Assembly: GCA_002163135.1 (NCBI GenBank)
Contig: MAAN01000023.1
Span: 2,501 to 66,500, forward strand
DNA: 64,000 nucleotides
Direction: 5' to 3'
Source: Alphaproteobacteria bacterium 46_93_T64
GTDB taxonomy: Bacteria; Pseudomonadota; Alphaproteobacteria; Sneathiellales; Sneathiellaceae
Shown here: in pieces, positions 46,100 through 64,000 of the stretch
Layout of the letters: the number at the start of each line of letters is the position of its first letter
Numbering within the stretch: position 1 is the first letter of the stretch
Position numbers and translations under genes: made by a program
The notes under the pieces: generated by a model
What the model was told of the DNA's origin: nothing
Seen by the model: the letters and a program-made list of their open reading frames with translations, nothing else
The model's database searches: none

Positions 46100-47800
46100 T
46101 TATTTGTCGATATTCTCACTCAAAATTTTATAGGATGTTCCAACACTGAAATAGTGCACATCAGACCATCCCCCTGGGCTAAGTTCCTTTTGGCGGAACC
46201 GCATACTGTAAACTAGGGTGTTTCCGCTGGAAGCTTCTTTCACCAACCACAGGCTGTAATATTTGAAGCGCCCAACAACCCAGCCGTCATTGATCCATTT
46301 GGCTTCCAGTTTCTCTGTCCATGGATCAATTTCTGCCGACCGTAAAATCTCTGTTCCAAACTGTTTTTCCGCGACTGCCAGAACAGTCTCATCGGCAGCC
46401 TTGGTATAACCTGGTGGGAATCTGTTTGCGGCAAGGCGTGCCTCTTTAGCTTCAGCAACACTTTTATCAATAGCCGCTATTTGCGTTTCGACGTCATTCC
46501 GGTCTTTTTCAATCGCATTTGCTTGGCCTTTCATCTTTTCAGAAGCTCCTTCGCCTAATGCTTTCATAGCCAGATCAAACTGCACAAAATCTTTTTTCAT
46601 CCAATTTGCCGCTTGGCCAGCCTGATAACTACGTTGATTATCATCTTGGTCTTTAGCTGCTATCAAAGCGTCGCTGGAATCTTTGATGGTCACCTTTACA
46701 CCGTCAAATAATTTGCTTAAATACGCGTCCTTCTTCCCTTTTTTATCTCGATAGGTATAGCGAAGCTCTTGCGCATACTCTTTGGCATACCTAGCAGCAC
46801 GTCCCTTGGTTGGAAGTTTATTAGCTGAGGCCGCTGCATCATATCCTTCCAGAGCAGATCGACTGGTATCCAGCGCCACGTCAAACGCAGAAAATGCTTT
46901 AGAAATATCACCTACCGTCTTGTAGGTTTTAAATGAGGAAGCTCTCGTAAGGGACACGTTTGCCTCGTCCAGAATGTCAATTATTTTCAGCCACTGGTCG
47001 TCTGTTTCAGCAGAAGCTTTCGGTGCTTGAGGCGCTTTAGTCGCGACTACGGTTTTCTTCATAGGTGTCGTTGTTGTAGGCTCAGTCGCAGCTACAGATT
47101 GTGCAGGTGCCGCAGAAGACGGCTTTACGATTTTTTTGGCTGAAGCTGTTGTCTTACCGGCCGTTATCTTGGCCGTCATTTCATCGCCAAGACGTTTACC
47201 AAGGGCACTGATTTCTGAGCGGGCAGCCACAGCGCGGCTATGTCCTTCCAGTTTTGGGTAGTTTCTATCAAACTTACCCAACTGCCGCATGGCTTCTTGC
47301 AAAGAGCTCAATGCAGTATTGGTATCACTGGCAGCTTCCTGTTTTTTGGCGGCGCCAATATGTTTTTCCGTCTGCTCCATATAACTTTTGGCAAAGCTTT
47401 TAAGCGGCGCTTCTGCTGGGGCGGAGGACACAACACTACTTTTTGTGGTTTTACCCACAGAAACTTTCGCCGCCATATCATTGCCTAGTTTTTTACCCCA
47501 ATCACTGATTGAAAGACGTGCTGCTGTCGCCCTGGAATGATCATGGTATTTTGGGGTTTTATCAAATTTTTCTAGTTGGTACATGGCCTTTTCCAAGGAC
47601 ATCAACGCAGTATTGGCATCCCCCGAGGCTGCCCTTTTCTCAACGTCTGCAAGTGCTTTTTCAACTTGCTTCATATAGCTTTTAGCAAACCCTTTAAGGG
47701 CCTCCTCCGCAACACTAATACTAGTAAGCGGCAAACTTAATGCCAAAATCATTCCAAAAACGGCTTTACTTCTACGCACTCCAAAAAAATTTCTAGACAT
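46100..47800 (-). CDS. Secreted protein with internal duplication, unknown function
   Basis: A 566-residue product with a signal peptide (A-V-F-G-M-I-L-A-L-S-L-P-L-T-S-I-S-V-A). Residues about 35-119 and 133-218 are clear duplicates: L-K-G-F-A-K-S-Y-M-K-Q-V-E-K against L-K-S-F-A-K-S-Y-M-E-Q-T-E-K, then D-(A/T)-N-T-A-L, (Y/R)-Q-L, K-F-D, H-S-R-A, A-A-R and G-K-(K/R)-L-G. A low-complexity Ala/Thr/Lys linker (about 218-270) leads to a helical, charged domain, and a C-terminal region (about 470-566) with A-K-W-I-N-D-G-W-V-V-G-R-F-K-Y-Y-S. No family was recognised. It is probably periplasmic or surface-exposed. Confidence 0.7.
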   Translation of the reverse strand: MSRNFFGVRRSKAVFGMILALSLPLTSISVAEEALKGFAKSYMKQVEKALADVEKRAASGDANTALMSLEKAMYQLEKFDKTPKYHDHSRATAARLSISDWGKKLGNDMAAKVSVGKTTKSSVVSSAPAEAPLKSFAKSYMEQTEKHIGAAKKQEAASDTNTALSSLQEAMRQLGKFDRNYPKLEGHSRAVAARSEISALGKRLGDEMTAKITAGKTTASAKKIVKPSSAAPAQSVAATEPTTTTPMKKTVVATKAPQAPKASAETDDQWLKIIDILDEANVSLTRASSFKTYKTVGDISKAFSAFDVALDTSRSALEGYDAAASANKLPTKGRAARYAKEYAQELRYTYRDKKGKKDAYLSKLFDGVKVTIKDSSDALIAAKDQDDNQRSYQAGQAANWMKKDFVQFDLAMKALGEGASEKMKGQANAIEKDRNDVETQIAAIDKSVAEAKEARLAANRFPPGYTKAADETVLAVAEKQFGTEILRSAEIDPWTEKLEAKWINDGWVVGRFKYYSLWLVKEASSGNTLVYSMRFRQKELSPGGWSDVHYFSVGTSYKILSENIDK

Positions 47801-50623: not shown

Positions 50624-52121
50624 TTGCTTTTTCGTAGTATACCTTATGATGCGATGATCCAAATGGATGGATCATGGACGTTCAATACGATTTTTGACGC
50701 TCTGGGCATTTCACCGCTGGCAAATTTACCCCATGTACCGATTTCCAATGTGCAAACAAATCCGTCCAATTGTTCAGCCAATAGCTTTTTCATACCAACT
50801 GTTTTTCGCTTCAGAAGCTCGGTTACGAGAGCGAGATATCGGCGATAAAGGATGCGATCGCCAATGGTGCTGCGGCTGTGACAACACATCAGGAGCAATT
50901 TCCCTTTAGCTCGGCGGTACCAATCATACGCGTTAAGGATTCCAGAAGGGTGCTCGCAATGCTTTCGATTTACGCGCGTCGAGAGTTTGTCGGCAAGATC
51001 ATTGCGGTGACCGGTAGTGTCGGAAAAACCACCACGAAAGATATGGTCAGTAGTGGCTTGTCGAAGTTTGGATCGTCCTACAAGACAAACAAATCAAATA
51101 ATCCTTTGTCAGGCGTTTGTATGACGATGATAAACGCACCATTCGACAACGATTATTTAACCTTGGAAATCGGTTCAATGGGATCTGGGCATATCCGCCA
51201 AGCGGAATTCATCCAACCGAACATCGGCATTATCACTAACGTCTGGCCATCTGCCCACCTTGAAAATTATCCGGACGAAGAAGCGCTTTTTCGAGAGAAA
51301 GCATCTCTATTGGATCTTCTTGCCGGCCCAAAAATAGGCATCATTCACGAAAGTGTTAGAGATGCGGATCGGAAGGCAGGGGGCGTCATCGCCGACAAGC
51401 AGTTGGGTCGCCTGATTACCATTGGCAGTACCTGTGATAACGATATTTACTGTGAAAACGCTCATTTCGATGGCATCAAAAGCACCGCGTTATGTGGGTG
51501 TTCGGCACGCCCTATCCGTTTGAGCTGGACTTGGCTGGAGCCCATTTCATTGATAGCGCCATGTTCGCGGTGGCAACAGCGGCAGCTTTGGACCAGGATG
51601 TCTCAATAGTGATTGCATCATTCGCGAACCCGAATGTTACCGGAAGGCGTCTCGAACGATACTGTATCAAATTGAAAGACGGAGATATCGAGTTTATCGA
51701 CGATAGTTATAATGCCAGTCCAGTTTCCGTTCGCGCACTCATCAATACATTGTCCTTCCGAAAAGCACCGAGGAAAGTAATTGTCTGGGGTGATATGAAG
51801 GGGCTGGGCGACCGGACGGAGTTTTACCATTCGCAGATAGCTTCGATGATTGGCCGGGGCAATATTGATCTCGTCTTAACCATCGGTGAGCAAACACAGA
51901 AAATTTGTAAGGAGCTCGGTTTATCGAACAAGCTGCATTTCCCTGATTGTGAAGCCCTAGCGCCCGCTATCCCGGATTTGATCCGGGCCGGCGATCTGAT
52001 AGCTGTGAAAGGGTCCGGGCTTTTGAAACTCTCCCAGATAGCTGACATAATCAAACTATTGGGTCCTTCGACCGTTGCCGGCAGCTGGCGGATAGAGGAC
52101 GCCATAAGCTGTTCTGATTGA
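50624..52121 (+). pseudogene. Frameshifted Mur-ligase-family gene (MurF-like)
   Basis: Three frames are needed to read one protein. The first (from about 50650) gives W-T-F-N-T-I-F-D-A-L-G-I-S and ends with S-F-F-I-P. The frame then shifts (about 50800-50835) to one that reads A-I-A-N-G-A-A-A-V-T-T-H and carries the ATP loop V-T-G-S-V-G-K-T-T-T-K-D and Y-L-T-L-E-I-G-S-M-G. A second shift near 51485 leads to the C-terminal domain: G-R-R-L-E-R-Y, D-D-S-Y-N-A-S-P-V-S and V-W-G-D-M-K-G-L-G. The order matches MurF (UDP-MurNAc-pentapeptide ligase) type enzymes, about 450 residues. At least two frameshifts make it inactive unless they are sequencing errors. It is too divergent to be the housekeeping murF and is probably an accessory copy. 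Confidence 0.75.
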
Positions 52122-53102: not shown

Positions 53103-53543
53103 TTAGCTAAAACTTTCTTCCAGTGCTTTAAATCCACCCAAAAAGACATCGTTCGCAACGAAATTTTCCCAATGACTTTCTTGTCCATCGCTGACTGAAA
53201 ATTCGGCTGTCCATTTGGCAAAGGTCTGATTTTGATTGGTAATCTCTTCAAAGGACATCGTTGAGATATAATCAACAAAGGGCAAGGGACCGCCAGACAA
53301 CATGTTATAGGTCAGTGTCTTTTGAAGATCAGATATCCTGAGTAAAGTCTCCCGAATTCTGCCCGACCCATCACTTAAAGCGAAGTTTCTAACGCAGCCG
53401 ACTTCTCCCGGATTACGGCTTTCTTCGATCCTGCTGTCTGTCGCAGCTGGGTGCCAATTTGGGAGGCCGTTGAAATCTTTAACTTTGGTCCAGATATCTG
53501 CCAGTGGAACATTTATGATTGTTGTTGAGCAAACTTTAATCAT
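53103..53543 (-). CDS. SRPBCC (START-like) family protein
   Basis: About 146 residues from the ATG at 53543, which overlaps the stop of the upstream gene by 8 bp; the longer frame to 53579 lies inside that gene. It begins I-K-V-C-S-T-T-I-I-N-V-P-L-A-D-I-W-T-K-V-K-D-F-N-G-L-P-N-W-H, the typical SRPBCC start (strand, helices, D-F-x-x-x-x-x-W), and has the long C-terminal helix. The fold has a deep hydrophobic cavity and binds lipids, polyketides or aromatic compounds, sometimes catalytically. As the last gene of the transporter/Tm-1 operon it may bind or convert the imported compound. Confidence 0.85.
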   Translation of the reverse strand: MIKVCSTTIINVPLADIWTKVKDFNGLPNWHPAATDSRIEESRNPGEVGCVRNFALSDGSGRIRETLLRISDLQKTLTYNMLSGGPLPFVDYISTMSFEEITNQNQTFAKWTAEFSVSDGQESHWENFVANDVFLGGFKALEESFS

Positions 53544-54405
53544 TGTTAGACGATCCTTCTTTTTGTTGAGGACCGCCAACGGCGAGCCTGGTAAACTCTT
53601 CTGTTCTTTGTGTTATAGCCATTTCGACAGGCAAACGCTCCATACTAGAAGCGCCATAAAATCCATGACAATCTGGGCAACGGGAGAGTAGATATTGTAC
53701 ATCTTTTGGTTCAGCCAGCGGGCCCCCATGGCAAATGAAAATCATATCAGATTTTACAGTACGAACAGCATCTGCCCATTCATTAAACATCTGAACACAT
53801 TCATCTAGAGAGTATGTATCATTGGCACCAATTGATCCACCTGCTGTTAATCCGAAATGCGTAACAATGACATCCGTCCCTGCTTCGGTCATTTGCAAGG
53901 CTTCGTTTTTCGTAAAAACATAAGGAGTAGTCAGCATATTTTTATGATTTGCCCGTGCGACAACATCAACTTCCATGTCATATCGCATACCAGTGTCTTC
54001 CAGTCCTCTCCTGAATTTTCCATCAATAATGCCAACAGTCGGAAAATTTTGCACGCCCGAAAAGCCGATACTAATTAGATCATCTAAATATTTGTCCACG
54101 ATGAGAAATGGATCTGTGCCGTTCACACCGGCCAAAACAGGGATTTTTTTAATAACAGGCAATACTTCTTTTGCCATATCGAAAACAATTTCGTTGGCAT
54201 TCCCGTAGGCCATGTAACCTGAAAGCGACCCGCGACCAGCCATCCGGTAGCGGCCAGAATTGTATATAACGATCAAGTCTGCCCCACCCTGCTCTTCACA
54301 TTTTGCACTGAGGCCAGTTCCTGCCCCCCCGCCAACGATCGATTGTTTATTTTCTATTTTGCGCTTTAATCTGGATAAAATTTCAGATTTTTCTATTGCA
54401 GCCAC
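53536..54405 (-). CDS. TIM-barrel protein of the 'PEP hydrolase' family
   Basis: About 289 residues. The family (PF09370-type) is the stand-alone equivalent of the second half of plant Tm-1. Key segments: I-V-G-G-G-A-G-T-G-L-S-A, Y-N-S-G-R-Y-R-M-A-G, V-Q-N-F-P-T-V-G-I-I-D-G-K-F-R, V-T-H-F-G-L-T-A-G-G and I-C-H-G-G-P-L-A-E-P, then Y-G-A-S-S-M-E-R-L-P. Reaction and substrate are not established; 'phosphoenolpyruvate hydrolase' is a historical label. I choose the GTG at 54405, 8 bp after an aggag ribosome site; the longer frame begins with a TTG at 54423. It follows the Tm-1-like gene and overlaps the SRPBCC gene by 8 bp. Confidence 0.85.
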   Translation of the reverse strand: MAAIEKSEILSRLKRKIENKQSIVGGGAGTGLSAKCEEQGGADLIVIYNSGRYRMAGRGSLSGYMAYGNANEIVFDMAKEVLPVIKKIPVLAGVNGTDPFLIVDKYLDDLISIGFSGVQNFPTVGIIDGKFRRGLEDTGMRYDMEVDVVARANHKNMLTTPYVFTKNEALQMTEAGTDVIVTHFGLTAGGSIGANDTYSLDECVQMFNEWADAVRTVKSDMIFICHGGPLAEPKDVQYLLSRCPDCHGFYGASSMERLPVEMAITQRTEEFTRLAVGGPQQKEGSSNND

Positions 54406-54430
54406 AATGGTATCTCCTAACAAGCCTTAG

Positions 54431-55642
54431 TTATTTGGCTGTAATTTCTTTGAAATTTTTCAAAGCAATTACAGCAAATTCTTTTGAATTTATGTGATAA
54501 TTTATGCGAATGACTTGCCGGTTGTCTGTTTGTACAACGGTGTCTTCTATAGCTCTAAATAAAGCAGCATTAGCTTCGATGTCGTAAAAAGGACCTCCCT
54601 CTACATCCAATGCAGACATTCCGAGCTCCGGGAGTAAAAATCGCACAGGCCCATTACAATTGTTCAACTTCCGACCGATCCAAACACCGATTTTCTCTGC
54701 TTCATCGGCAGTTGATCGCATTAATGTCACTTGTTCGTTGTGAATATAAAAATTACGATCCTTAAAATGAGCCGGGACAGTATCTCTTCCCCAAAAATTG
54801 GCCATATCTAACGCCCCACAGGACCCCACATAGGGAACACCCGTTTGGGCGATACTATCCAAACGTCCTTCGCCTGCACTCAGCATTCCACCAATGATTA
54901 AGTCGCAAATCTCGGTCGTTGTAATATCAATGACAGCAGAGACATCTCCTTGCGCTACCAATTTCTCCATGGAACGGCCCCCCGTCCCTGTGGCATGGAA
55001 TACCAAGCAGTCCCATTCTTTTTCAAGTGCTTCGACCAATGAAAGCACGCAAGTTGTCGTTACCCCAAACATGGTAAGAGCGACGGCGTCACGTTCCATA
55101 TCCATTTCAGGCGCTTTCCAACGCATCATCCCTGCCAAAGCATGAGCCGCATTGGCAAGCACTTTAGAAGACACCCGATTAATGCCGGCAACATCCGTTA
55201 CAGAATGGAACATGTTAATATCGCAAGGTCCGACATATGCAGACACATCGCCGGAGGCAAGCGTGGAAACCAGAATTTTTGGTATTCCTATTGGCAACGT
55301 TTGCATGGCAGGAGCAATCATACCTGTACCACCAGACCCTCCTAAACCAATAATTCCACCCACGTCAGAACGTGTACTGATAAAAGTCTCAAGCGCTCGG
55401 CCCATCTCCTTAACAGCTAGGCCTCGATCATCAATAAAGACAGATGATGGTCCGTCTGGATGGTGCATCGCGACCTCTATTGCCTTCACATCAGCGGCAC
55501 ATTCAATGGGTCGTGTACTAATATCGACGAGAACAGTGTCCAATTCGGGATTGGCGCTTGCGATAAGATCCCGAACATAGATCAAATCAACCTCTTTGGT
55601 ATCACATGTTCCAATCACATACGCTTTACTTTGTTTATTCAT
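54431..55642 (-). CDS. Tm-1-like (UPF0261) ATP-binding protein
   Basis: A 403-residue member of the UPF0261 family, homologous to the N-terminal half of the tomato virus-resistance protein Tm-1. The N-terminus A-Y-V-I-G-T-C-D-T-K-E-V-D-L-I-Y-V-R, the glycine loop G-I-I-G-L-G-G-S-G-G-T-G-M-I-A-P-A-M and V-S-T-L-A-S-G-D-V-S-A-Y-V-G are family hallmarks. The Gly-rich loop probably binds nucleotide. In bacteria it usually lies next to a TIM-barrel 'PEP hydrolase' gene, as here; plants fuse the two. Its function is not established. The neighbouring ABC importer suggests a role in processing a transported compound. Confidence 0.92.
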   Translation of the reverse strand: MNKQSKAYVIGTCDTKEVDLIYVRDLIASANPELDTVLVDISTRPIECAADVKAIEVAMHHPDGPSSVFIDDRGLAVKEMGRALETFISTRSDVGGIIGLGGSGGTGMIAPAMQTLPIGIPKILVSTLASGDVSAYVGPCDINMFHSVTDVAGINRVSSKVLANAAHALAGMMRWKAPEMDMERDAVALTMFGVTTTCVLSLVEALEKEWDCLVFHATGTGGRSMEKLVAQGDVSAVIDITTTEICDLIIGGMLSAGEGRLDSIAQTGVPYVGSCGALDMANFWGRDTVPAHFKDRNFYIHNEQVTLMRSTADEAEKIGVWIGRKLNNCNGPVRFLLPELGMSALDVEGGPFYDIEANAALFRAIEDTVVQTDNRQVIRINYHINSKEFAVIALKNFKEITAK

Positions 55643-55660
55643 ATATCCGTCCTCACGCGC

Positions 55661-56374
55661 TTAATCGCTGAAGGTAATTCCTAGATATTCCTGCTGCATT
55701 TCAGGATTATCTTTGAGTGTGTCGGCCTTCACTTCATTTATAATTCGTCCGTTGACCATGATCAGAATGTCTTCCGCCGCCTCGAGAGCTACGGAGATAT
55801 TCTGCTCAACAAGCAACAATCCAATTCCCTCCGCCTGAAGGGACAATAGAAGCTCCGTCACATCATCTACAATGGTAGGTGCTAATCCTTCTGTAGGTTC
55901 ATCCATGATCATCAGTTTTGGATCGAGCATAAGTGCACGGGAAATTGCCAGCATTTGTTGCTCGCCTCCTGACAATCGGTCCCCCATATTGCTTTTACGT
56001 TCTGCCAATCGCGGAAAAATCGAAAATATTCTATCAATTGGCCAATTTGTATTTTTTCGTTCTACAAGCTTCAAATGTTCTAGAACACTTAAGGAACGAA
56101 ACATTCGTCGCCCCTGGGGCACATATCCAATTCCTGCTTTAGCTCGCTGTTCTGGTGGGAATAAACTGATATCATGTCTCTCAAGAAATACGTGACCTGA
56201 TGCCATTTTCGTCAAACCAACTAGGGCTGAACAAAGTGTGGTTTTCCCCATCCCATTTCGCCCGAGAATTGCCTTAGGCTTGTTTCCCATCGAGACATCG
56301 ATGTCCTGCAATGTATGGCTTGATCCATGAAATACATTCAATTTTTCAATCTTTAGAAGTTGACTGTCCATCAT
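55661..56374 (-). CDS. livF: Branched-chain-type ABC transporter ATPase (LivF)
   Basis: A 237-residue ABC ATPase: Walker A G-R-N-G-M-G-K-T-T, Q-loop region Y-V-P-Q-G-R-R-M-F, signature L-S-G-G-E-Q-Q-M, Walker B L-M-I-M-D-E-P-T-E-G-L-A-P and I-G-L-L-L-V-E-Q-N-I (His replaced by the E-Q-N typical of LivF). It overlaps livG by 4 bp. The Tm-1-like gene starts 18 bp after it, so the importer and that protein are in one operon. The order H-M-binding protein-G-F places the receptor in the middle. Confidence 0.93.
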   Translation of the reverse strand: MMDSQLLKIEKLNVFHGSSHTLQDIDVSMGNKPKAILGRNGMGKTTLCSALVGLTKMASGHVFLERHDISLFPPEQRAKAGIGYVPQGRRMFRSLSVLEHLKLVERKNTNWPIDRIFSIFPRLAERKSNMGDRLSGGEQQMLAISRALMLDPKLMIMDEPTEGLAPTIVDDVTELLLSLQAEGIGLLLVEQNISVALEAAEDILIMVNGRIINEVKADTLKDNPEMQQEYLGITFSD

Positions 56375-57144
56375 TGTTTTTTCCCCACATAGATATCTCG
56401 AACAATATCGCTGTGAACAATTTCTTCTGGGGTCCTCTCAAGCAGATGCTTTCCGTTATGCATCACGCTTACAATTTCAGAAGTCTCAAGGGCAATATCC
56501 ATGTCATGCTCAATTAAAATGACACTAATTGTTTTAGGTAATGACAAAAGCAGTTCCGTTAATACGGGACGCTCTGCCGGTGACAAACCTGCGGCAGGCT
56601 CATCAAATAAAATGATTTTTGGATCTCCGGATAAAGCGATACCAATTTCAAGCTGGCGCTTCTGCCCATGTGATAGATTACCAACCAAGGCATCCAACAA
56701 CGAAAACAAACCCGCTTTTTTGGCGAGCATTTCTGCTTCCGCTTGATATTTATTGTTCTTTTTAATGGGGAGAAAAGATTGCCATCTATTGTGGATCCCC
56801 ACCGATGATAAGAACAATGTTTCCCGGACGGTCAGACCGTCAAAAAGAAGGGCATGCTGATAGGTCCGCCTGATACCAGATTTTATTCTCTTATACGTCG
56901 GCAGCTTTGAACTTTCTACGCCTTCAATTTTGATGTTGCCTGCAGATAAGGCCAAATCACCTGTTACGAGATTGAATAAAGTGGTTTTTCCAGCTCCATT
57001 TGAGCCAAGAATGGCTCTTCTTTCGCCAGTCTTGATTGACATATTGAAGTTTTCAACTGCAACGAAACTTCCAAACCGTCGGGTGACGCCCTGTAAACTC
57101 AGAGCGTCACCATCATTAGAAGTCGGTGTGTTTGTTACGGACAA
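56371..57144 (-). CDS. livG: Branched-chain-type ABC transporter ATPase (LivG)
   Basis: A 257-residue ABC ATPase: Walker A G-S-N-G-A-G-K-T-T, signature L-S-H-G-Q-K-R, Walker B I-I-L-F-D-E-P-A-A-G-L-S-P and I-E-H-D-M-D-I-A-L (switch His). The Arg in R-R-T-Y-Q-H, near the Q-loop, is typical of LivG. It overlaps the receptor gene by 10 bp at the start and livF by 4 bp at the end. Substrates of this family include amino acids, urea, amides and aromatic acids. Confidence 0.93.
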   Translation of the reverse strand: MSVTNTPTSNDGDALSLQGVTRRFGSFVAVENFNMSIKTGERRAILGSNGAGKTTLFNLVTGDLALSAGNIKIEGVESSKLPTYKRIKSGIRRTYQHALLFDGLTVRETLFLSSVGIHNRWQSFLPIKKNNKYQAEAEMLAKKAGLFSLLDALVGNLSHGQKRQLEIGIALSGDPKIILFDEPAAGLSPAERPVLTELLLSLPKTISVILIEHDMDIALETSEIVSVMHNGKHLLERTPEEIVHSDIVRDIYVGKKQ

Positions 57145-58385
57145 GATGGGTTGTCCCGGCTGACAGGGCCCAGTGCTTTAAATTTAGCAGCATCATGACC
57201 CATTGTTTGGTTCACGTTGCGAATAACCTTCAGTACACGATTACCGAAAGTTCCATCTTCACGTTCAAAGACTTCCGTAACAAAGCTATCAATAATACCA
57301 TTGCGGTTTTCATCGAGTCGCATGGTACCACCAGTCGGGGTTACGAATTCCAGTTTTTCAAGGACCGCACGGAAAGCTTTCTGGTTATTGGATAAGTCAC
57401 CATTTACTTTTTCCAAGCCTAACAAAGCAGCTTTACCAGCCATATAATAATGGTGGGCAAAGATTGAAGGAGCAGATAAACCGTCCGGGAATGATTTGGC
57501 ATATGAGGCCGAAAATTCTTTCCACTCTTTACCTTCAAAATCACTGACAGTTGGCGTACCTGCTGGTGTCCCAACAAGAAGCTTTTTGAACGGACCTTTA
57601 CTATCCAAAATGGACTGATCAATTGTGATCGTGCCGCCTATGATTGGTTTATTCCCGCCCGCTTGATTGTATTGTGTCAGGAAATTTACCGCGTCAGCGC
57701 CCCCAAGGGCCACAAAGATTGCGTCCACATCATCCGGGATTGCATATACTATAGATGAATAATCTTTCGTTCCGATAGGTGTCCAGAATTTATTTGGAAC
57801 ACGGCCACCCGCTTTACAGTATTCAGACATAAAGCCCAATACTTGAGTATATGGGAATGAATAATCTTCAGCAACAACTGCCACTTTCTTGTAACCTAAT
57901 TTTTCATAGGAATAGGTTCCAACGCCCGCCATCCATTGTGCGCCATCTCCACCAAATCGGAAGAAGTTATCAGAACCGTCACGGAAGGTTGTATCTTGGG
58001 CCGCGGAAGAACCGTTAATAAAGGTAACTCCCTGATATCCTTTTGAAAGATCGCGAAGGGCAATACCCTCTGAACCAGAAAGTGGACCGATAATAATATC
58101 AACCTTGTCTTTTTCAATCAATTTGCGAGCCGCATTTACTGCAGAATCTGGACTTGCATCCGAAGACATCACAATAATCTCAACATCTTTACCCGCGGCT
58201 TTGTTTCCCGTTTCAATAAATGCGAGTTCTGCACCACGAATACCGTCTTTGCCCAAAGCCGCAAAAGCGCCTTCCAAAATCGAGATCACTCCGATTTTGA
58301 CTTTCTCTGCAGCAAACACCGGGTTTGCTATAAATGTTGCGGCGATGACACTCGCCGCCAATATTTTCTTAAAGTTTGAGATCAT
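57135..58385 (-). CDS. LivK-type periplasmic substrate-binding protein
   Basis: A 416-residue receptor with a signal peptide (I-L-A-A-S-V-I-A-A-T-F-I-A-N-P-V-F-A-A). The mature protein begins V-K-I-G-V-I-S-I-L-E-G-A-F-A-A-L-G-K-D-G-I-R-G-A-E-L-A and has the I-I-G-P-L-S-G-S-E-G-I-A-L loop, the family's usual ligand-site segment. It resembles aromatic/amide binders more than leucine-binding LivJ, but the ligand is not predictable. Its end overlaps livG by 10 bp. Being central to the operon, it would define the substrate of the whole Tm-1/TIM-barrel system. Confidence 0.9.
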   Translation of the reverse strand: MISNFKKILAASVIAATFIANPVFAAEKVKIGVISILEGAFAALGKDGIRGAELAFIETGNKAAGKDVEIIVMSSDASPDSAVNAARKLIEKDKVDIIIGPLSGSEGIALRDLSKGYQGVTFINGSSAAQDTTFRDGSDNFFRFGGDGAQWMAGVGTYSYEKLGYKKVAVVAEDYSFPYTQVLGFMSEYCKAGGRVPNKFWTPIGTKDYSSIVYAIPDDVDAIFVALGGADAVNFLTQYNQAGGNKPIIGGTITIDQSILDSKGPFKKLLVGTPAGTPTVSDFEGKEWKEFSASYAKSFPDGLSAPSIFAHHYYMAGKAALLGLEKVNGDLSNNQKAFRAVLEKLEFVTPTGGTMRLDENRNGIIDSFVTEVFEREDGTFGNRVLKVIRNVNQTMGHDAAKFKALGPVSRDNPSCP

Positions 58386-58416
58386 TGAATTTTTCCTCCA
58401 TTTGTTTAGCTGTTCG

Positions 58417-59376
58417 TTAGTTGAGTACTATTTTTTTGATCCGCTCTTTGACGGACTTCAGAATTCCAAGAATTCCTTCTGGAGCCGCAATTACGATTAG
58501 TAATAAAACCAACCCAATTACCGTGTTGAAACGATCCCGGCTTATAAGGTCAATCGCAAAGGTATCGATCATCACATAAGTGATGGCCCCGATGAACGCG
58601 CCCAAAGGATGGCGCATTCCACCAATAACAGAAATTATCAAGACATCGATTGTTGGCCCTAGGCCCACCGAAAATGATGAAACTCGCTCCTGATGCCAAA
58701 CATTCAAGATCCCCGCCATACCAGCAATTAATCCTGAAAAAGCATAAGCAGAAACAATGACAGGTGATGTTGGTATGCCTATTGCCCGAACACGCCTTGC
58801 TGCATCTCTAACGCCCTGGATTGAAAGTCCCAAAGGGCTGGAGGAAAATTTAACCACGAATAAAGTCGCCAACGCGCCGGTAAACAGGCAAACATAATAG
58901 AATACGACCGGTGCCCCTAGATCCAAACCCATCACCGACGGCGCAGATATACCCGAAAATCCGGTCCATCCATTGAAAACGGAATAGTTTTGACGCGTGA
59001 AGTAGAAGAAAGCCATACTGATAGCGAGGGTGATCATAATAGAATAAATGCCGACAGATTGCCTCGCGATTAAACCAACAAGAGCACCTGCGATTGTAGA
59101 GAAAAACAATGCGAGTAAAACTGCGAATACCCATGGCAGTTCCGCACCGATGCCTGCTGTATTTGCACTAAAATATGCAATCGTGTATCCCGCTATCCCA
59201 GCCAACGTTACTTGGGCGAATGAAACCACGCCCAAATACGCAGTTAGGAAGGTCAAACTCAGGGCCATTACACCAAGAATAATCGATCGACTAAGAATTT
59301 GTGTAAGCCAGAAATCGGCAGCAAAAACAGGTAAAACACTACAAATTATAAGCAGAAGTATTATGAAACGGTTCAT
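58417..59376 (-). CDS. livM: Branched-chain-type ABC transporter permease (LivM)
   Basis: A 319-residue membrane protein with about nine hydrophobic helices and the family pattern A-L-S-L-T-F-L-T-A-Y-L-G-V-V-S-F-A-Q, then Y-T-I-A-Y-F, and near the end S-V-I-G-G-M-R-H-P-L-G-A-F-I-G-A, the ATPase-contact loop. It overlaps livH by 4 bp (ATGA) and is followed 31 bp later by the receptor gene. Confidence 0.92.
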   Translation of the reverse strand: MNRFIILLLIICSVLPVFAADFWLTQILSRSIILGVMALSLTFLTAYLGVVSFAQVTLAGIAGYTIAYFSANTAGIGAELPWVFAVLLALFFSTIAGALVGLIARQSVGIYSIMITLAISMAFFYFTRQNYSVFNGWTGFSGISAPSVMGLDLGAPVVFYYVCLFTGALATLFVVKFSSSPLGLSIQGVRDAARRVRAIGIPTSPVIVSAYAFSGLIAGMAGILNVWHQERVSSFSVGLGPTIDVLIISVIGGMRHPLGAFIGAITYVMIDTFAIDLISRDRFNTVIGLVLLLIVIAAPEGILGILKSVKERIKKIVLN

Positions 59377-60239
59377 TTCTCGGATCTCCCCAAGAGACCT
59401 TGAGGTCGGATAGCGAGAACCGCAATCATAATCACAAAAGTAAATACCACACCGTAAGTGGGTGCATAAGCAAGGCCATATTGCTCGGCCATGCCAATCA
59501 GCAAGGCTCCTAATGCCGCGCCACCAATACTGCCCATTCCGCCAACTATAACGACGACTAAGGAAGAAAGAAGAAACTGCATGTCGGTACCAGGTGCAAT
59601 TGACAAGGCACTGCCAGTAATCACACCTGCCATTCCTGTCAGCATGCCGCCAATTGCGAAAACGATTACAAAAATCTTCTTTGTCTCGAAACCCAATGCC
59701 TGAAGCATTTCCCGATCATCTACACCAGCACGGATTATGATCCCTAATTTTGTTTTCGCTATTAATAACCAAAGCAAAATACCAGTGACGGCCGCCATAG
59801 CCATAAGCGTTAATCGAACTGAGGAGTAACCAACGTTCAAAATAGGAAGTCTTACGCCTCCTAGAAGCATTTCAGGCAGACTAATTTGATAGGTTAAGCC
59901 TCCCCACGCCCATAGCATCAAATCTGCCATAATAATCGATATGGCGATTGTAATGAGTGTTTGACGAAGTTCGTCGCCCTGATAACGACCTAAAATGTAG
60001 GCCTGTATTGCAGCGCCTACTATTGCTGAAGTCAGTCCGCCTGCGATTATGCCGACAGTCCATAACCCAGTGATTTCTACCACTTCATAACCAACATACG
60101 CCCCTAAGAGCAACAAGGCCCCGTGCGCCATATTGACTGTCCGCATTAAGCCAAAAATTAGCGTAAAACCGCAGGCTGCAATAAAATACAACGCCGCTAG
60201 TGTCAGTCCATTAAAGAAAACTATAAAAAAGAACTTCAT
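59373..60239 (-). CDS. livH: Branched-chain-type ABC transporter permease (LivH)
   Basis: A 288-residue membrane permease, first gene of the operon. It starts F-F-I-V-F-F-N-G-L-T-L-A-A-L-Y-F-I-A-A-C-G-F-T-L-I-F-G-L-M-R-T-V-N-M-A-H-G, the strict LivH hallmark, and ends with V-V-V-I-V-G-G-M-G-S-I-G-G-A-A-L-G-A-L-L-I-G. The promoter must lie in the 179-bp region shared with the divergent regulator pair. Confidence 0.93.
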   Translation of the reverse strand: MKFFFIVFFNGLTLAALYFIAACGFTLIFGLMRTVNMAHGALLLLGAYVGYEVVEITGLWTVGIIAGGLTSAIVGAAIQAYILGRYQGDELRQTLITIAISIIMADLMLWAWGGLTYQISLPEMLLGGVRLPILNVGYSSVRLTLMAMAAVTGILLWLLIAKTKLGIIIRAGVDDREMLQALGFETKKIFVIVFAIGGMLTGMAGVITGSALSIAPGTDMQFLLSSLVVVIVGGMGSIGGAALGALLIGMAEQYGLAYAPTYGVVFTFVIMIAVLAIRPQGLLGRSEK

Positions 60240-60356
60240 TGCTACTCCCTTTGCATCAATTATTTAGGGGAAAAGCAGAGAACGCCAGAAAATGCTTGAA
60301 TAAATAAAATCAAATAAATCAATTACTTAAAGAATATTGTGAAAATTCCTTTTCAT

Positions 60357-60410
60357 AATAAGGAGAAATAATCGGAAAATAAGTACTATTCTTCTTATAT
60401 TTTCCTTATT
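60357..60410. promoter_or_regulatory. Nested inverted repeats between livH operon and regulator genes
   Basis: aataagg (60357-60363) pairs with ccttatt (60404-60410), and inside them ggaaaataag (60374-60383) pairs with cttatattttcc (60394-60405) with a 2-nt insertion. The pair overlaps the promoter zone of the 60419 gene and is a plausible operator of the divergent regulator. I found no -24/-12 site with correct spacing. Confidence 0.4.
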
Positions 60411-60418
60411 GTTACACA

Positions 60419-61084
60419 ATGAAAACCTTAACCTTGACTTCCAATTGTGAAAAATCACTATCCGATCAAATCTTGTGTCCAATTTTGGAAGGGCTCAACG
60501 CTACGCAGGCGGATTGTGCAGCGATCATACCCTCAGGAAATGCCAACAATCTTCTTGTCAACAAATTACCGTCGCATTCTGGCTTATTAACCTATCAAGC
60601 CGCCATTCTATGCTGTGATCCCTTTATGAACAGGGAAACGTTTTTCACTGAGTTGTATTCACGAGGTGTCCGATCCGTATCGAATTGGCCCACGACTATC
60701 TTTCTTGAACATAACTTCAAAAAAGCCATGAATAATATCAATGCCAATCCCATGACAGAGTTTGAATGTCTCGCAGACGCGATGAAAATGGGCATGGAAG
60801 CCAAAGCCTTCATACTCTCATTGGAGCAAGGGAAGCAGGCCATTTCTCAAGGCATTAGAGACTTGATTGTTCACCCAGGACTACAGATAGCGCTCTCTGA
60901 AGGTGCGCAGAACACACTGTACGAGTCATTACATTTCATGATTGAAACATTGTTGAAAATTGAACCAACACTCAACGTCTATATTTATCAACATACAAAA
61001 CATGAAATGGAGGCCCATCACAAGCGTTACAGAAAGAACCCTCCCTCAATTTCGGGCTATGTCATTTATCAGGGGTCAGAATGA
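60419..61084 (+). CDS. Shortened, degenerate TIM-barrel protein (PEP-hydrolase-like), putative sensor partner
   Basis: A 221-residue protein I recognise only through its neighbours. Its C-D-P-F-M-N-R-E-T-F-F-T-E-L (about 66-79), R-G-V-R-S-V-S-N-W-P-T (82-92) and D-L-I-V-H-P-G-L (148-155) align with the D-P-F...G-V-Q-N-F-P-T...V-I-V-T-H-F-G-L order of the TIM-barrel enzyme at 53536-54405, and G-N-A-N (40-43) matches its G-N-A-N. The N-terminal strands are reduced and the I-D-G-K and G-G-P motifs are lost, so catalysis is unlikely. It overlaps the fused regulator gene by an ATGA, suggesting a complex. No good ribosome site precedes its ATG. Function unknown. Confidence 0.65.
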   Translation: MKTLTLTSNCEKSLSDQILCPILEGLNATQADCAAIIPSGNANNLLVNKLPSHSGLLTYQAAILCCDPFMNRETFFTELYSRGVRSVSNWPTTIFLEHNFKKAMNNINANPMTEFECLADAMKMGMEAKAFILSLEQGKQAISQGIRDLIVHPGLQIALSEGAQNTLYESLHFMIETLLKIEPTLNVYIYQHTKHEMEAHHKRYRKNPPSISGYVIYQGSE

Positions 61085-62844
61085 GAAAATTAGTCTCTAA
61101 CAAAAAAGCGCCCTTCAGTTTTGCTGCTGCGGTCGGAGCTGGCATGACGGCCATTGCAGCGGAGAAAGGGGGCGCCGAGTTTTTATTGCTTCTAAATGCA
61201 GGTCGCCTGAGGATGCGAGGCGGAGCGTCATTAGGCTGTTATTTACCACTTGAAGATGCAAATAGTTGGATAGATCGAATTGGAAGAACCGAAGTCCTCA
61301 ACAAATGCAAAATACCTGTTTTGATGGGTTGCAGCGTTGCTAATCCCAACTTGGGTGTAGAAACAATTGTTGAAACAGCGCGAATGAGTGGTTTTTCAGG
61401 TGTCACCAATTTCCCCACTGCCGTCCTAATCGACGGAAAAATAAGGGATATTCTTGAATTACAAAACATTGGTTTTGGCAAAGAATGCGAGTTGATCAAA
61501 GTCGCATCCCAGCAAGGACTGCAAACATTAGCTTATGTCTCGAACAATACCGAAGCGTCAATGATGGTTGCCGCCGGAGCCGATATGCTGTGCATCAACA
61601 TCGGATTTACACACAATTCATCGATTGAAGCAAGCGATCTAACCATTGATAACACTGCCAAGATAATAGATCGGGCTCTAAAAAACATTCCTTTGGAAAT
61701 TCCAACATATGTGGAAGGCGGCCCAATTACGACACCCGAATTTGCCCTTGCCATATATAACAAGAGCCGTGTGCAAGGCTATATTGCGGGTTCCACAATT
61801 GATCGATTTCCACTAGAGGAAACAATTGTTGATGTTGCCAAATCATACCGCATTATAAGTCAGATAAAAACTGACAACAAATCTGACACTAATTCCAACT
61901 TTATCCACGGTTCTTCGAAAAAAATGCGCGAGATTCAAAAACTCGTTGGGTACTTCGGAGAAAAGAATGATCCAGTTTTGATTGTCGGTCCTAGTGGTTC
62001 AGGGAAAAGCCTCCTCGCTGAGGAAATTCATCGCCACGCGGAAAAAAACCATCCAAAATTGATCCATATAGACTGCCTCAGCCTTTCACCAAATAATAGC
62101 GTGGAAGAACTTTTTGGTACTGCTTTAGGCCATTACGGCAAAGGAACGCCATCTCAAGCAGGTATTTTGGAAGACGCCGATCAGGCCACAGTCGTTTTTG
62201 AAGAAATATCTGCATTGAGCCTTGAGGCTCAGGCTAAAATTGTGAACTTTGTTGATACTGGTAACGTCCACCGAATGGGGGGCGACAGACAAAAGAAAGT
62301 CAGATGCCGAATTATTGCAACGACCAATGAATCTATTGACGACTTGCTGGAAAAAAAATTACTAAGAAAAGACCTGTATTATCGCCTTAACGCGGTGCAA
62401 ATTCTCATTCCGGCTCTAAAAGATAGAGCCGGAGATATTCCCCATTTGGCAAAAGAAATACTAAGCGGAGCCACAAAATCCAAGAAAAAGTCAATTTCGA
62501 ATTCAGGATTTGGGGCTTTATTGGACCATGACTGGCCCGGCAATGTCAGAGAGCTGAAAAATGCCATTAACAGGGCCTGCCTATTAGGTAATTCAGAGAC
62601 ACTAAAACCTTCAGATTTTAGTTTTTTAACAGACCTAACAAAAACACTTATAGAAGATCAGCAACCGTCTTTTTCTGAACCAGTTAGCCAAGCAGCCCCC
62701 CAACCGGCAATGACGGAAAGAGATTGGATTGCTGATGCCCTCCAAAGAAACAAGTTTAAAAGAGGTCCAACAGCAGAAGAACTCGGGATAACAACAAGAA
62801 CTCTTTATAGTAAAATAAAAAAATATTCTCTTTATTCTCCGTGA
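61081..62844 (+). CDS. TIM-barrel / AAA+ / Fis-HTH fusion regulator lacking GAFTGA
   Basis: A 587-residue regulator. Residues about 1-260 are a PEP-hydrolase-type TIM barrel (N-A-G-R-L-R-M-R-G; V-T-N-F-P-T-A-V-L-I-D-G-K; V-E-G-G-P). Residues about 275-515 are a bacterial enhancer-binding-protein AAA+ domain: Walker A G-P-S-G-S-G-K-S (303-310), Walker B V-V-F-E-E-I-S (371-377), sensor I I-I-A-T-T-N-E (411-417), D-L-Y-Y-R-L-N (431-437) and G-N-V-R-E-L (487-492). The Fis-type helix-turn-helix is at about 563-582. The sigma54-contact loop, normally GAFTGA, is G-H-Y-G-K-G (350-355), and Walker B has E for D. A canonical sigma54 activator role is doubtful. Overlaps the preceding gene by 4 bp; divergent from the operon it presumably controls. 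Confidence 0.9.
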   Translation: MRKLVSNKKAPFSFAAAVGAGMTAIAAEKGGAEFLLLLNAGRLRMRGGASLGCYLPLEDANSWIDRIGRTEVLNKCKIPVLMGCSVANPNLGVETIVETARMSGFSGVTNFPTAVLIDGKIRDILELQNIGFGKECELIKVASQQGLQTLAYVSNNTEASMMVAAGADMLCINIGFTHNSSIEASDLTIDNTAKIIDRALKNIPLEIPTYVEGGPITTPEFALAIYNKSRVQGYIAGSTIDRFPLEETIVDVAKSYRIISQIKTDNKSDTNSNFIHGSSKKMREIQKLVGYFGEKNDPVLIVGPSGSGKSLLAEEIHRHAEKNHPKLIHIDCLSLSPNNSVEELFGTALGHYGKGTPSQAGILEDADQATVVFEEISALSLEAQAKIVNFVDTGNVHRMGGDRQKKVRCRIIATTNESIDDLLEKKLLRKDLYYRLNAVQILIPALKDRAGDIPHLAKEILSGATKSKKKSISNSGFGALLDHDWPGNVRELKNAINRACLLGNSETLKPSDFSFLTDLTKTLIEDQQPSFSEPVSQAAPQPAMTERDWIADALQRNKFKRGPTAEELGITTRTLYSKIKKYSLYSP

Positions 62845-62910: not shown

Positions 62911-62955
62911 TGGTTGCGGGGGTAAGATTTGAACTTACGACCTTCAGGTTATGAG
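62911..62955 (-). other. 3' fragment of an initiator tRNA-Met gene (island attachment site)
   Basis: Read on the minus strand this 45-nt piece runs from the CAT anticodon loop (ctcataacctg) through the variable loop to the T-arm (gtaag-ttcaaat-cttac) and the CCCCCGCAACCA end. That is the 3' part of an initiator tRNA-Met. The 5' half is absent: beyond 62955 the sequence is unrelated. A tRNA 3' fragment beside a tyrosine recombinase gene is the classic att site of an integrative element, here with an intact tRNA expected beyond the right edge. Confidence 0.8.
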
Positions 62956-63124
62956 TTAGTTATTTATCGTTTACACGCAATACCTTTCGATACGCTAAAT
63001 CATCATATCTCATTGTTATTATTCACTATAAATAAAAATACATACGCTTGCGTACTTACTTTTTTGTTGCATTTCGCTGCCAATTGCTTCCATTATGCTT
63101 CCACAAACAGAGAATTGGAAGCAC

Positions 63125-64000
63125 ATGCCACGATTAAACAAACGAACATTGGATGCTCTTAAAATAGAAGAGAAAGAGTATTTCCTTTGGGATGACGATC
63201 TACCCGGTTTTGGCGTTCGTGTAATGTCCTCTGGTCGGAAGAGCTTTCTAATCCAATACAGAGACAGTGGACGGCGCACCCGCCGCATAAGCCTTGGACG
63301 GTACGGCACTGTTACAGCGGACGAAGCTAAAGGAACCGCTCGTGAGTTATTATCGTCAGTCACTCGCGGCGGCAATCCAGCGGAGGATTTACGGCGCAAA
63401 CGCGGCGCTTTAACTATGATCGACCTTTGCGAGCGTTTTATGGAGGATTACGTCCCGTCTCACTGTAAGGAAAGCACTGCCAAGGAATACCGCCGCTGTG
63501 TAGATCTATTTATTGCCCCTGCATTTGGTAATGTAAAAGCTGAAGACATCGACAGGCCGCTTATTGCCGATTTACACCATAAGTACCGCAACAAGCCCTA
63601 TCAGGCAAACCGAACGCTTGGCGTATTATCAGTGATGTTTAATCAAGCCGAGATTTGGGGATTGCGCCCTGATGGATCGAATCCTTGCCGCCATGTCAAA
63701 AAATACGAGGAGACAAAGCGCGAGAGGTATTTGAGCCCAGAAGAGCTCACTGGATTAGGAAAGGCGCTTTCCAAAATAGAGGTAAAGGGTACTGAGTCTC
63801 AATCCGCCATTAATTGTATCCGGCTGTTGATATTGACGGGTTGCCGCCTTGGGGAAATTCAAACTCTTAAATGGGAATATGTTCAGGGAAGTTCAGCGTG
63901 GCTTCCAGACTCAAAAACCGGCGCGAAGAGAGTTTACCTTGGCCCTGCGGCTGTAGAGGTCTTGAATACCATAGAGCGCCTACCGAATAATCCATATGTC
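63125..64000 (+). CDS. Tyrosine recombinase/integrase, 5' part (runs off window)
   Basis: The reading frame is open from the ATG at 63125 to the last base (292 codons). The N-terminus (P-R-L-N-K-R-T-L-D-A-L, then D-D-D-L-P-G-F-G-V-R-V and R-R-I-S-L-G-R-Y-G) is an arm-type DNA-binding domain of phage/island integrases; a core-binding SAM-like domain follows (T-A-K-E-Y-R-R-C-V-D-L-F). The catalytic domain begins with the first active-site Arg in L-T-G-C-R-L-G-E-I-Q-T-L-K-W. The remaining H-R-H-Y residues would be outside. ggaag lies 4 bp before the start. It sits 170 bp from the tRNA 3' fragment and so marks the left end of an integrated element. Confidence 0.9.
   Translation, partial: MPRLNKRTLDALKIEEKEYFLWDDDLPGFGVRVMSSGRKSFLIQYRDSGRRTRRISLGRYGTVTADEAKGTARELLSSVTRGGNPAEDLRRKRGALTMIDLCERFMEDYVPSHCKESTAKEYRRCVDLFIAPAFGNVKAEDIDRPLIADLHHKYRNKPYQANRTLGVLSVMFNQAEIWGLRPDGSNPCRHVKKYEETKRERYLSPEELTGLGKALSKIEVKGTESQSAINCIRLLILTGCRLGEIQTLKWEYVQGSSAWLPDSKTGAKRVYLGPAAVEVLNTIERLPNNPYV

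Follow-up and report, generated by a model that had tools for sequence, protein, structure and literature searches.

What does a UPF0261 protein, a relative of tomato Tm-1, do in a bacterium when it stands next to a PF09370 TIM-barrel enzyme, an importer and a regulator built on the same barrel? The question is raised by ten genes in a 64,000-nucleotide stretch of DNA (the window) from Alphaproteobacteria bacterium 46_93_T64 (GenBank assembly GCA_002163135.1, contig MAAN01000023.1, positions 2,501 to 66,500 of the forward strand). The cluster is a real, conserved system of import, catabolism and local regulation. Most likely, its UPF0261 protein would be an ATP-dependent kinase that acts on an imported compound of phenol- or enol-like type, and the PF09370 protein would be the next enzyme. 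As to how the parts work together, we favour, with a little less than even confidence, an inducible import-and-activate operon in which LivHMGF would import a compound, UPF0261 phosphorylate it and PF09370 convert it, under the eye of a sensor derived from the enzyme.

A ten-gene cluster and its distribution

All ten genes of the preliminary description were found as open reading frames (ORFs), in the order and on the strands that it gave, and Pfam agrees with their assignment:

53103..53543, minus strand: SRPBCC (PF10604) protein (Pfam 9.7e-19); a TTG at 53579 is also open
53536..54423, minus strand: PF09370 TIM-barrel enzyme, kin of PDB 2p10 (Mll9387) (Pfam 1.6e-124)
54431..55642, minus strand: UPF0261/Tm-1-like protein, probable ATP-dependent kinase (Pfam, N domain 3.6e-55, C domain 1.4e-86)
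55661..56374, minus strand: LivF-type ATP-binding cassette (ABC) ATPase (Pfam)
56371..57144, minus strand: LivG-type ABC ATPase (Pfam)
57135..58385, minus strand: periplasmic receptor (Pfam Peripla_BP_6, 1.4e-51)
58417..59376, minus strand: LivM-type permease (Pfam BPD_transp_2)
59373..60239, minus strand: LivH-type permease (Pfam BPD_transp_2)
60419..61084, plus strand: half-barrel PF09370 protein, putative partner of the regulator (Pfam 1.5e-14, residues 29-167)
61081..62844, plus strand: PF09370-AAA+-Fis regulator without a GAFTGA loop (PF09370, Sigma54_activat, AAA lid and HTH_8)

The importer is a complete Liv/HAAT ABC set in one operon (two permeases, two ATPases and a Peripla_BP_6 receptor), and its genes fall below the NCBIfam equivalog cut-offs for branched-chain amino acid or urea transporters (LivF 151.3 vs 441; UrtE 212.3 vs 285.8; UrtA 61.4 vs 492.75). 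Both UPF0261 domains are full length and above cut-off (N 187.1 and C 289.7 bits vs cut-offs of 27), as is the enzyme's PF09370 domain, with 414.9 bits over profile positions 1-266 of 267. The genes are tightly packed, with overlaps of 4 bases between LivH and LivM, 10 between the receptor and LivG, and 4 between LivG and LivF, and gaps of 31 bases from LivM to the receptor, 18 from LivF to UPF0261, and 7 from UPF0261 to the TIM-barrel gene. For the SRPBCC gene, the ATG at 53543 (MIKVCSTT...) is a more probable start than the TTG, because a 146-residue relative at locus L084 begins there; from this ATG, the gene overlaps the barrel gene by 8 bases. On the other strand, the stop of the half-barrel gene overlaps the start of the regulator by 4 bases. 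The overlap of these two divergent genes was thus correctly described, but only one of them encodes a full TIM barrel, the other a partial one. The same ten-gene arrangement recurs in other families, at loci L061, L090 and L091 (the SRPBCC gene of L091 being under the match threshold used), and is therefore not a product of chance.

The co-occurrence of the parts was followed in a census, with thresholds of our own, of 289 genomes of the class and 398 of the phylum, genomes G000, G052 and G182 belonging to both samples. The fetched stretches were no longer than 20 kb and a regulator may lie outside them, so that its counts are minimum values; nor can the 148 loci be treated as independent, since, by their lengths, L106/L215 and L077/L165 seem to be one contig each, and L229, the third locus of G489, lies outside the census. 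In the class sample, PF09370 had a match in 27 genomes and exceeded its cut-off in 26, all of which also possess UPF0261, in the same stretch in 24 cases; conversely, PF09370 is missing from 7 of the 33 UPF0261 genomes. LivHM and the receptor accompany PF09370 in 14 of the 26 genomes, SRPBCC in 16 (including 14/14 Liv genomes), and the barrel-Fis regulator in 5, every one of them Liv-linked. The phylum sample is similar, with PF09370 in 27 genomes, UPF0261 in 27/27, the Liv genes plus receptor in 12 and the regulator in 4. This importer family is consequently unseen in 12/26 and 15/27 PF09370 genomes, respectively; among the 12 class genomes, Liv-type genes of another kind lie close by at L082 and L088, and L068 ends at a contig edge. 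Among 80 named loci, which are the best of at least 588 confirmed matches and hence biased, Liv genes plus receptor occur at 23, and among the other loci are pairs that stand alone, in Acetobacteraceae, Enterobacterales and Rhizobium. With so many pairs lacking importer or regulator, neither of the two is an obligate companion of the pair, an outcome that the preliminary description had itself listed as speaking against its proposal.

Within the genus of the source organism, PF09370 is over cut-off in 8 of 23 genomes, marking a patchy module. In seven of these eight, UPF0261 lies within an ORF of 747-767 residues (the LivF-UPF0261 form), and in the eighth, G007, the form is that of the window, on a short contig stopping before UPF0261. 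Such patchy presence, together with differing forms in the same genus, makes exchange of the module between lineages likely. Farther afield, Thermomicrobium roseum has an unfused permease-permease-receptor-ATPase-ATPase-UPF0261-TIM run with molybdenum (Mo)-hydroxylase, FAA hydrolase and phosphoenolpyruvate (PEP)-utilising genes further on. Fifteen annotated plasmid regions were opened, one of which carried no annotation; they include one PF09370 gene without UPF0261 in view and one apparently shortened UPF0261 gene. In G102, a second, divergent PF09370/UPF0261 set (L063:246-2814) adjoins the main cluster. The pair's presence in 491 of 504 bacterial genomes, and its co-evolution, had already been published, according to the accessible part of that report (PMC5028733).

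Import and chemistry of the substrate

Where importer and pair both occur, their association is supported: LivF and UPF0261 form one ORF in 11/14 (class) and 11/12 (phylum) Liv-linked genomes (Pfam checked on L081). In a tree of 143 UPF0261 sequences, of which 47 are in the LivF-fused form, a minimum of 3 state changes is needed, vs 40 with shuffled labels. This physical joining of an ATPase to UPF0261, seen as single ORFs in relatives of the window, suggests that UPF0261 would act at the cytoplasmic mouth of the importer. The importer tie of UPF0261 is a new point.

The earlier statement that these families have no settled biochemical function is partly outdated, since the UPF0261 protein Saro_1862 has been solved with bound acetovanillone (PDB 9mpy). 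The predicted structure of the window's UPF0261 protein (predicted local distance difference test score, pLDDT, 93.2) matches both Tm-1 and 9mpy, all sharing the same fold. Moreover, acetovanillone catabolism in Novosphingobium aromaticivorans begins with MarK, a single-component kinase, as given in the accessible part of PMC13101465. Acetovanillone-bound Saro_1862 and the MarK kinase step together point to UPF0261 as an ATP-dependent kinase. As for PF09370, residues H189, H232, D104 and R60 are present in all 128 aligned enzymes, including that of the window (ORFs of 255-350 residues, longer and shorter ones having been dropped). The family is named PEP hydrolase-like, and the name is not taken here as a function.

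In the import-and-activate operon that we favour, the LivHMGF importer and its receptor would bring in a small compound, probably aromatic or an enolisable hydroxy compound. UPF0261, positioned at the importer's cytoplasmic face, would phosphorylate it with ATP, as Saro_1862 and the conserved polar residues suggest, and the PF09370 barrel might then cleave or rearrange the activated product by means of its four invariant residues. The SRPBCC protein could hold a hydrophobic ligand or an intermediate. It is also conceivable, though rather doubtful, that activation is vectorial, with a kinase seated on the importer ATPase phosphorylating the substrate at entry, PF09370 cleaving it, inactivated barrel copies (the Fis regulator and a half-barrel adaptor) sensing the same compound, and the pair, fused in plants, becoming Tm-1. 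That the cluster's own proteins should do the chemistry, no catabolic gene being present, fits this compact version, but longer relatives carry several such genes within the run itself, encoding a flotillin, an SRPBCC-quinone reductase fusion, an amidohydrolase, an alpha/beta (PcaD-like) hydrolase, an FAA hydrolase and a Mo-hydroxylase.

Several observations weigh against the import-and-activate operon. The 9mpy protein is just 29% identical to the window's UPF0261 by structural alignment, with a root-mean-square deviation of 6.8, so the ligand may differ, and the identity of MarK with Saro_1862 is one that we infer. We know of no reaction for PF09370, and no carboxylase of the Hpe pathway turned up in the cluster or in the ten ORFs scanned on its flanks. 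A Vibrio plasmid holds the pair with no importer in view, and the regulator is unseen near most pairs in the census. Finally, rhizobial pairs adjoin genes for a CUT1 sugar-type importer, a cupin and Gfo/Idh/MocA proteins, settings that argue against a single aromatic substrate; substrates probably differ between versions of the module.

These rhizobial settings would also suit a substrate that is truly a carbohydrate-derived acid or keto-sugar, with UPF0261 phosphorylating an enol or hydroxyl group, PF09370 acting as an aldolase-like lyase that releases a pyruvate-type unit, and the aromatic-looking clusters being later recruitments. This agrees with the CUT1 genes that lie close by in 9 of the 15 phylum-sample genomes without the Liv importer, and with two Bradyrhizobium plasmids on which the pair and an FAD oxidoreductase gene are followed by a gene annotated pyk. 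Set against them are the aromatic ketone bound in 9mpy and the Mo-hydroxylase, PcaD-like hydrolase or quinone reductase genes of many Liv-linked clusters, and we regard a sugar substrate as unlikely.

Alternatively, UPF0261 and PF09370 could be a housekeeping pair for repair or detoxification (metabolite damage control), to which importers and regulators were added variously and with no fixed link to import. This importer family is unseen in about half of the genomes with PF09370, the pairs of Acetobacteraceae and Enterobacterales stand bare, and plants and fungi possess both domains, according to the accessible part of PMC5028733. The LivF-UPF0261 single ORFs, the dedicated sensor pair and the many plasmids involved (342 plasmid records with a UPF0261 match) nevertheless look catabolic, and we regard a housekeeping role as improbable.

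The barrel regulator, its partner and the surrounding DNA

The barrel-fused regulator had been proposed as the sensor of the system, and alignment, motifs and tree agree with this, as it resembles an enzyme barrel adapted to ligand sensing. The window's regulator and the 25 fetched ones, 26 barrel-Fis proteins in all, fall in one clade with a local support of 100 (FastTree). At position 189 they have N in 23, V in 2, D in 1 and H in none, at position 232 E in 22, G in 3 and H in 1, and D104 is kept in 12. The GAFTGA loop is absent in 26/26, the window reading GHYGKG, whereas the Fis helix-turn-helix (HTH) is kept in 26/26 and Walker A in 6. The window's own regulator, of 587 residues, has Walker A, the AAA+ lid and the Fis HTH, with VVFEEI as Walker B. 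It would thus be an enzyme barrel turned sensor, both invariant histidines replaced and an AAA+ module joining the barrel to the HTH. Because the AAA+ module has no sigma-54 contact loop, the regulator should act without sigma-54, perhaps in the manner of TyrR.

The half-barrel proteins keep D104 in 24/25, N126 and E151 in 25/25 and H189 in 8/25, and the E262-E267 region is missing from 22/25. Their gene occurs at 24 of the 25 fetched regulators vs 0 of 123 loci without a regulator; only L066 lacks one, and this locus holds the second of two regulator copies of G007, the other copy being accompanied by a half-barrel. The seeds of the half-barrel profile were drawn from the same loci, and several are independently named by Pfam or by record annotation. 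Among the 24 regulator/half-barrel pairs, 15 are on opposite strands and overlap or lie no more than 33 bases apart, 4 overlap on the same strand (the window's layout), and 5 are on opposite strands at 0.9-4 kb. In the window, the translationally overlapping half-barrel protein may be the regulator's dedicated partner. Given this co-occurrence and the enzyme-derived regulator, the most plausible reading of the divergent gene pair is a sensor in two parts, built from the enzyme, which is a second new point. Two results count against it: the regulator tree carries long-branch warnings, and the window's own candidate operator is insignificant (12/60 shuffles).

An ordinary sigma-54 enhancer-binding protein, as databases name some rhizobial relatives, would fit the Sigma54_activat match (3.6e-40) and the presence of rpoN in the genome, but is very unlikely in view of the missing GAFTGA loop, the rarity of an intact Walker A and an intergenic region without a convincing -24/-12 site, where the one match, at 60240, has two mismatches and a lost GG. 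The database label "sigma-54-dependent" is therefore probably wrong for this family; it is carried by the regulators of L196, L197 and L199 despite the absent GAFTGA. Rhizobial plasmids and related genomes (L196, L197, L200, L201, L203, L205) combine the regulator/half-barrel pair with sugar-type importers. Inverted-repeat half sites, GGMAAA...TTTKCC, lie 3-17 bp upstream of the half-barrel start, and are strong at L065 and L090 and weak at L061.

Past the regulator, window positions 62917-64000 hold a tRNA-3'-like stretch and then an intact tyrosine integrase ORF (416 residues stop to stop) that continues beyond the window, so that an integrated element probably ends here, directly beside the module. 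A 41-base piece of the tRNA-like stretch occurs once in the assembly (no more than 3 mismatches), and ARAGORN predicts no tRNA gene anywhere in the window. On the other side, a Mur-ligase-like gene at 50878-52121 lies in two overlapping ORFs (middle and C-terminal domain) and looks frameshifted, and a 566-residue ORF at 46100-47800 has no Pfam match at 1e-5.

Comparison with known systems

TyrR-like enhancer-binding proteins combine AAA+ and Fis HTH domains and lack the GAFTGA sigma-54 contact loop. Unlike them, the window's regulator has a PF09370 barrel as its putative sensor and an accompanying half-barrel protein, which suggests that an enzyme fold was reused as a two-part sensor.

Among PF09370 enzymes, Mll9387 of Mesorhizobium (PDB 2p10) is like that of the window (E-value of 1.7e-110 over 276 residues). 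Plasmid pMLa of M. japonicum, its likely source, likewise carries UPF0261 together with genes for a half-barrel protein and a barrel-Fis regulator; cupin and Gfo/Idh/MocA genes come next there, and a 15.8-kb stretch shows no Liv importer, other ABC genes lying further off. In the Hpe, Acv and MarK hydroxyphenylethanone pathways, the first step is an ATP-dependent phosphorylation, and a carboxylase, lacking from the ORFs scanned in the window, is included, according to the accessible parts of PMC13101465 and PMC12167813. Saro_1862 of N. aromaticivorans does not keep N282-F283 or the MFGVTT motif.

Finally, tomato Tm-1 (PDB 3wrv/3wrw/3wrx/3wry) is a fusion of UPF0261 and a TIM barrel, of which the UPF0261 half is compared here. 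Its ancestral biochemistry is an open question, so far as the literature searched shows. Since the bacterial pair has its own receptor and sensors, the substrate should be findable through ligands of the soluble receptor and then through the two enzymes. Moreover, of the 61 positions that are invariant in 30 bacterial UPF0261 sequences, tomato Tm-1 keeps 60, and the answer may thus carry over to Tm-1 itself.
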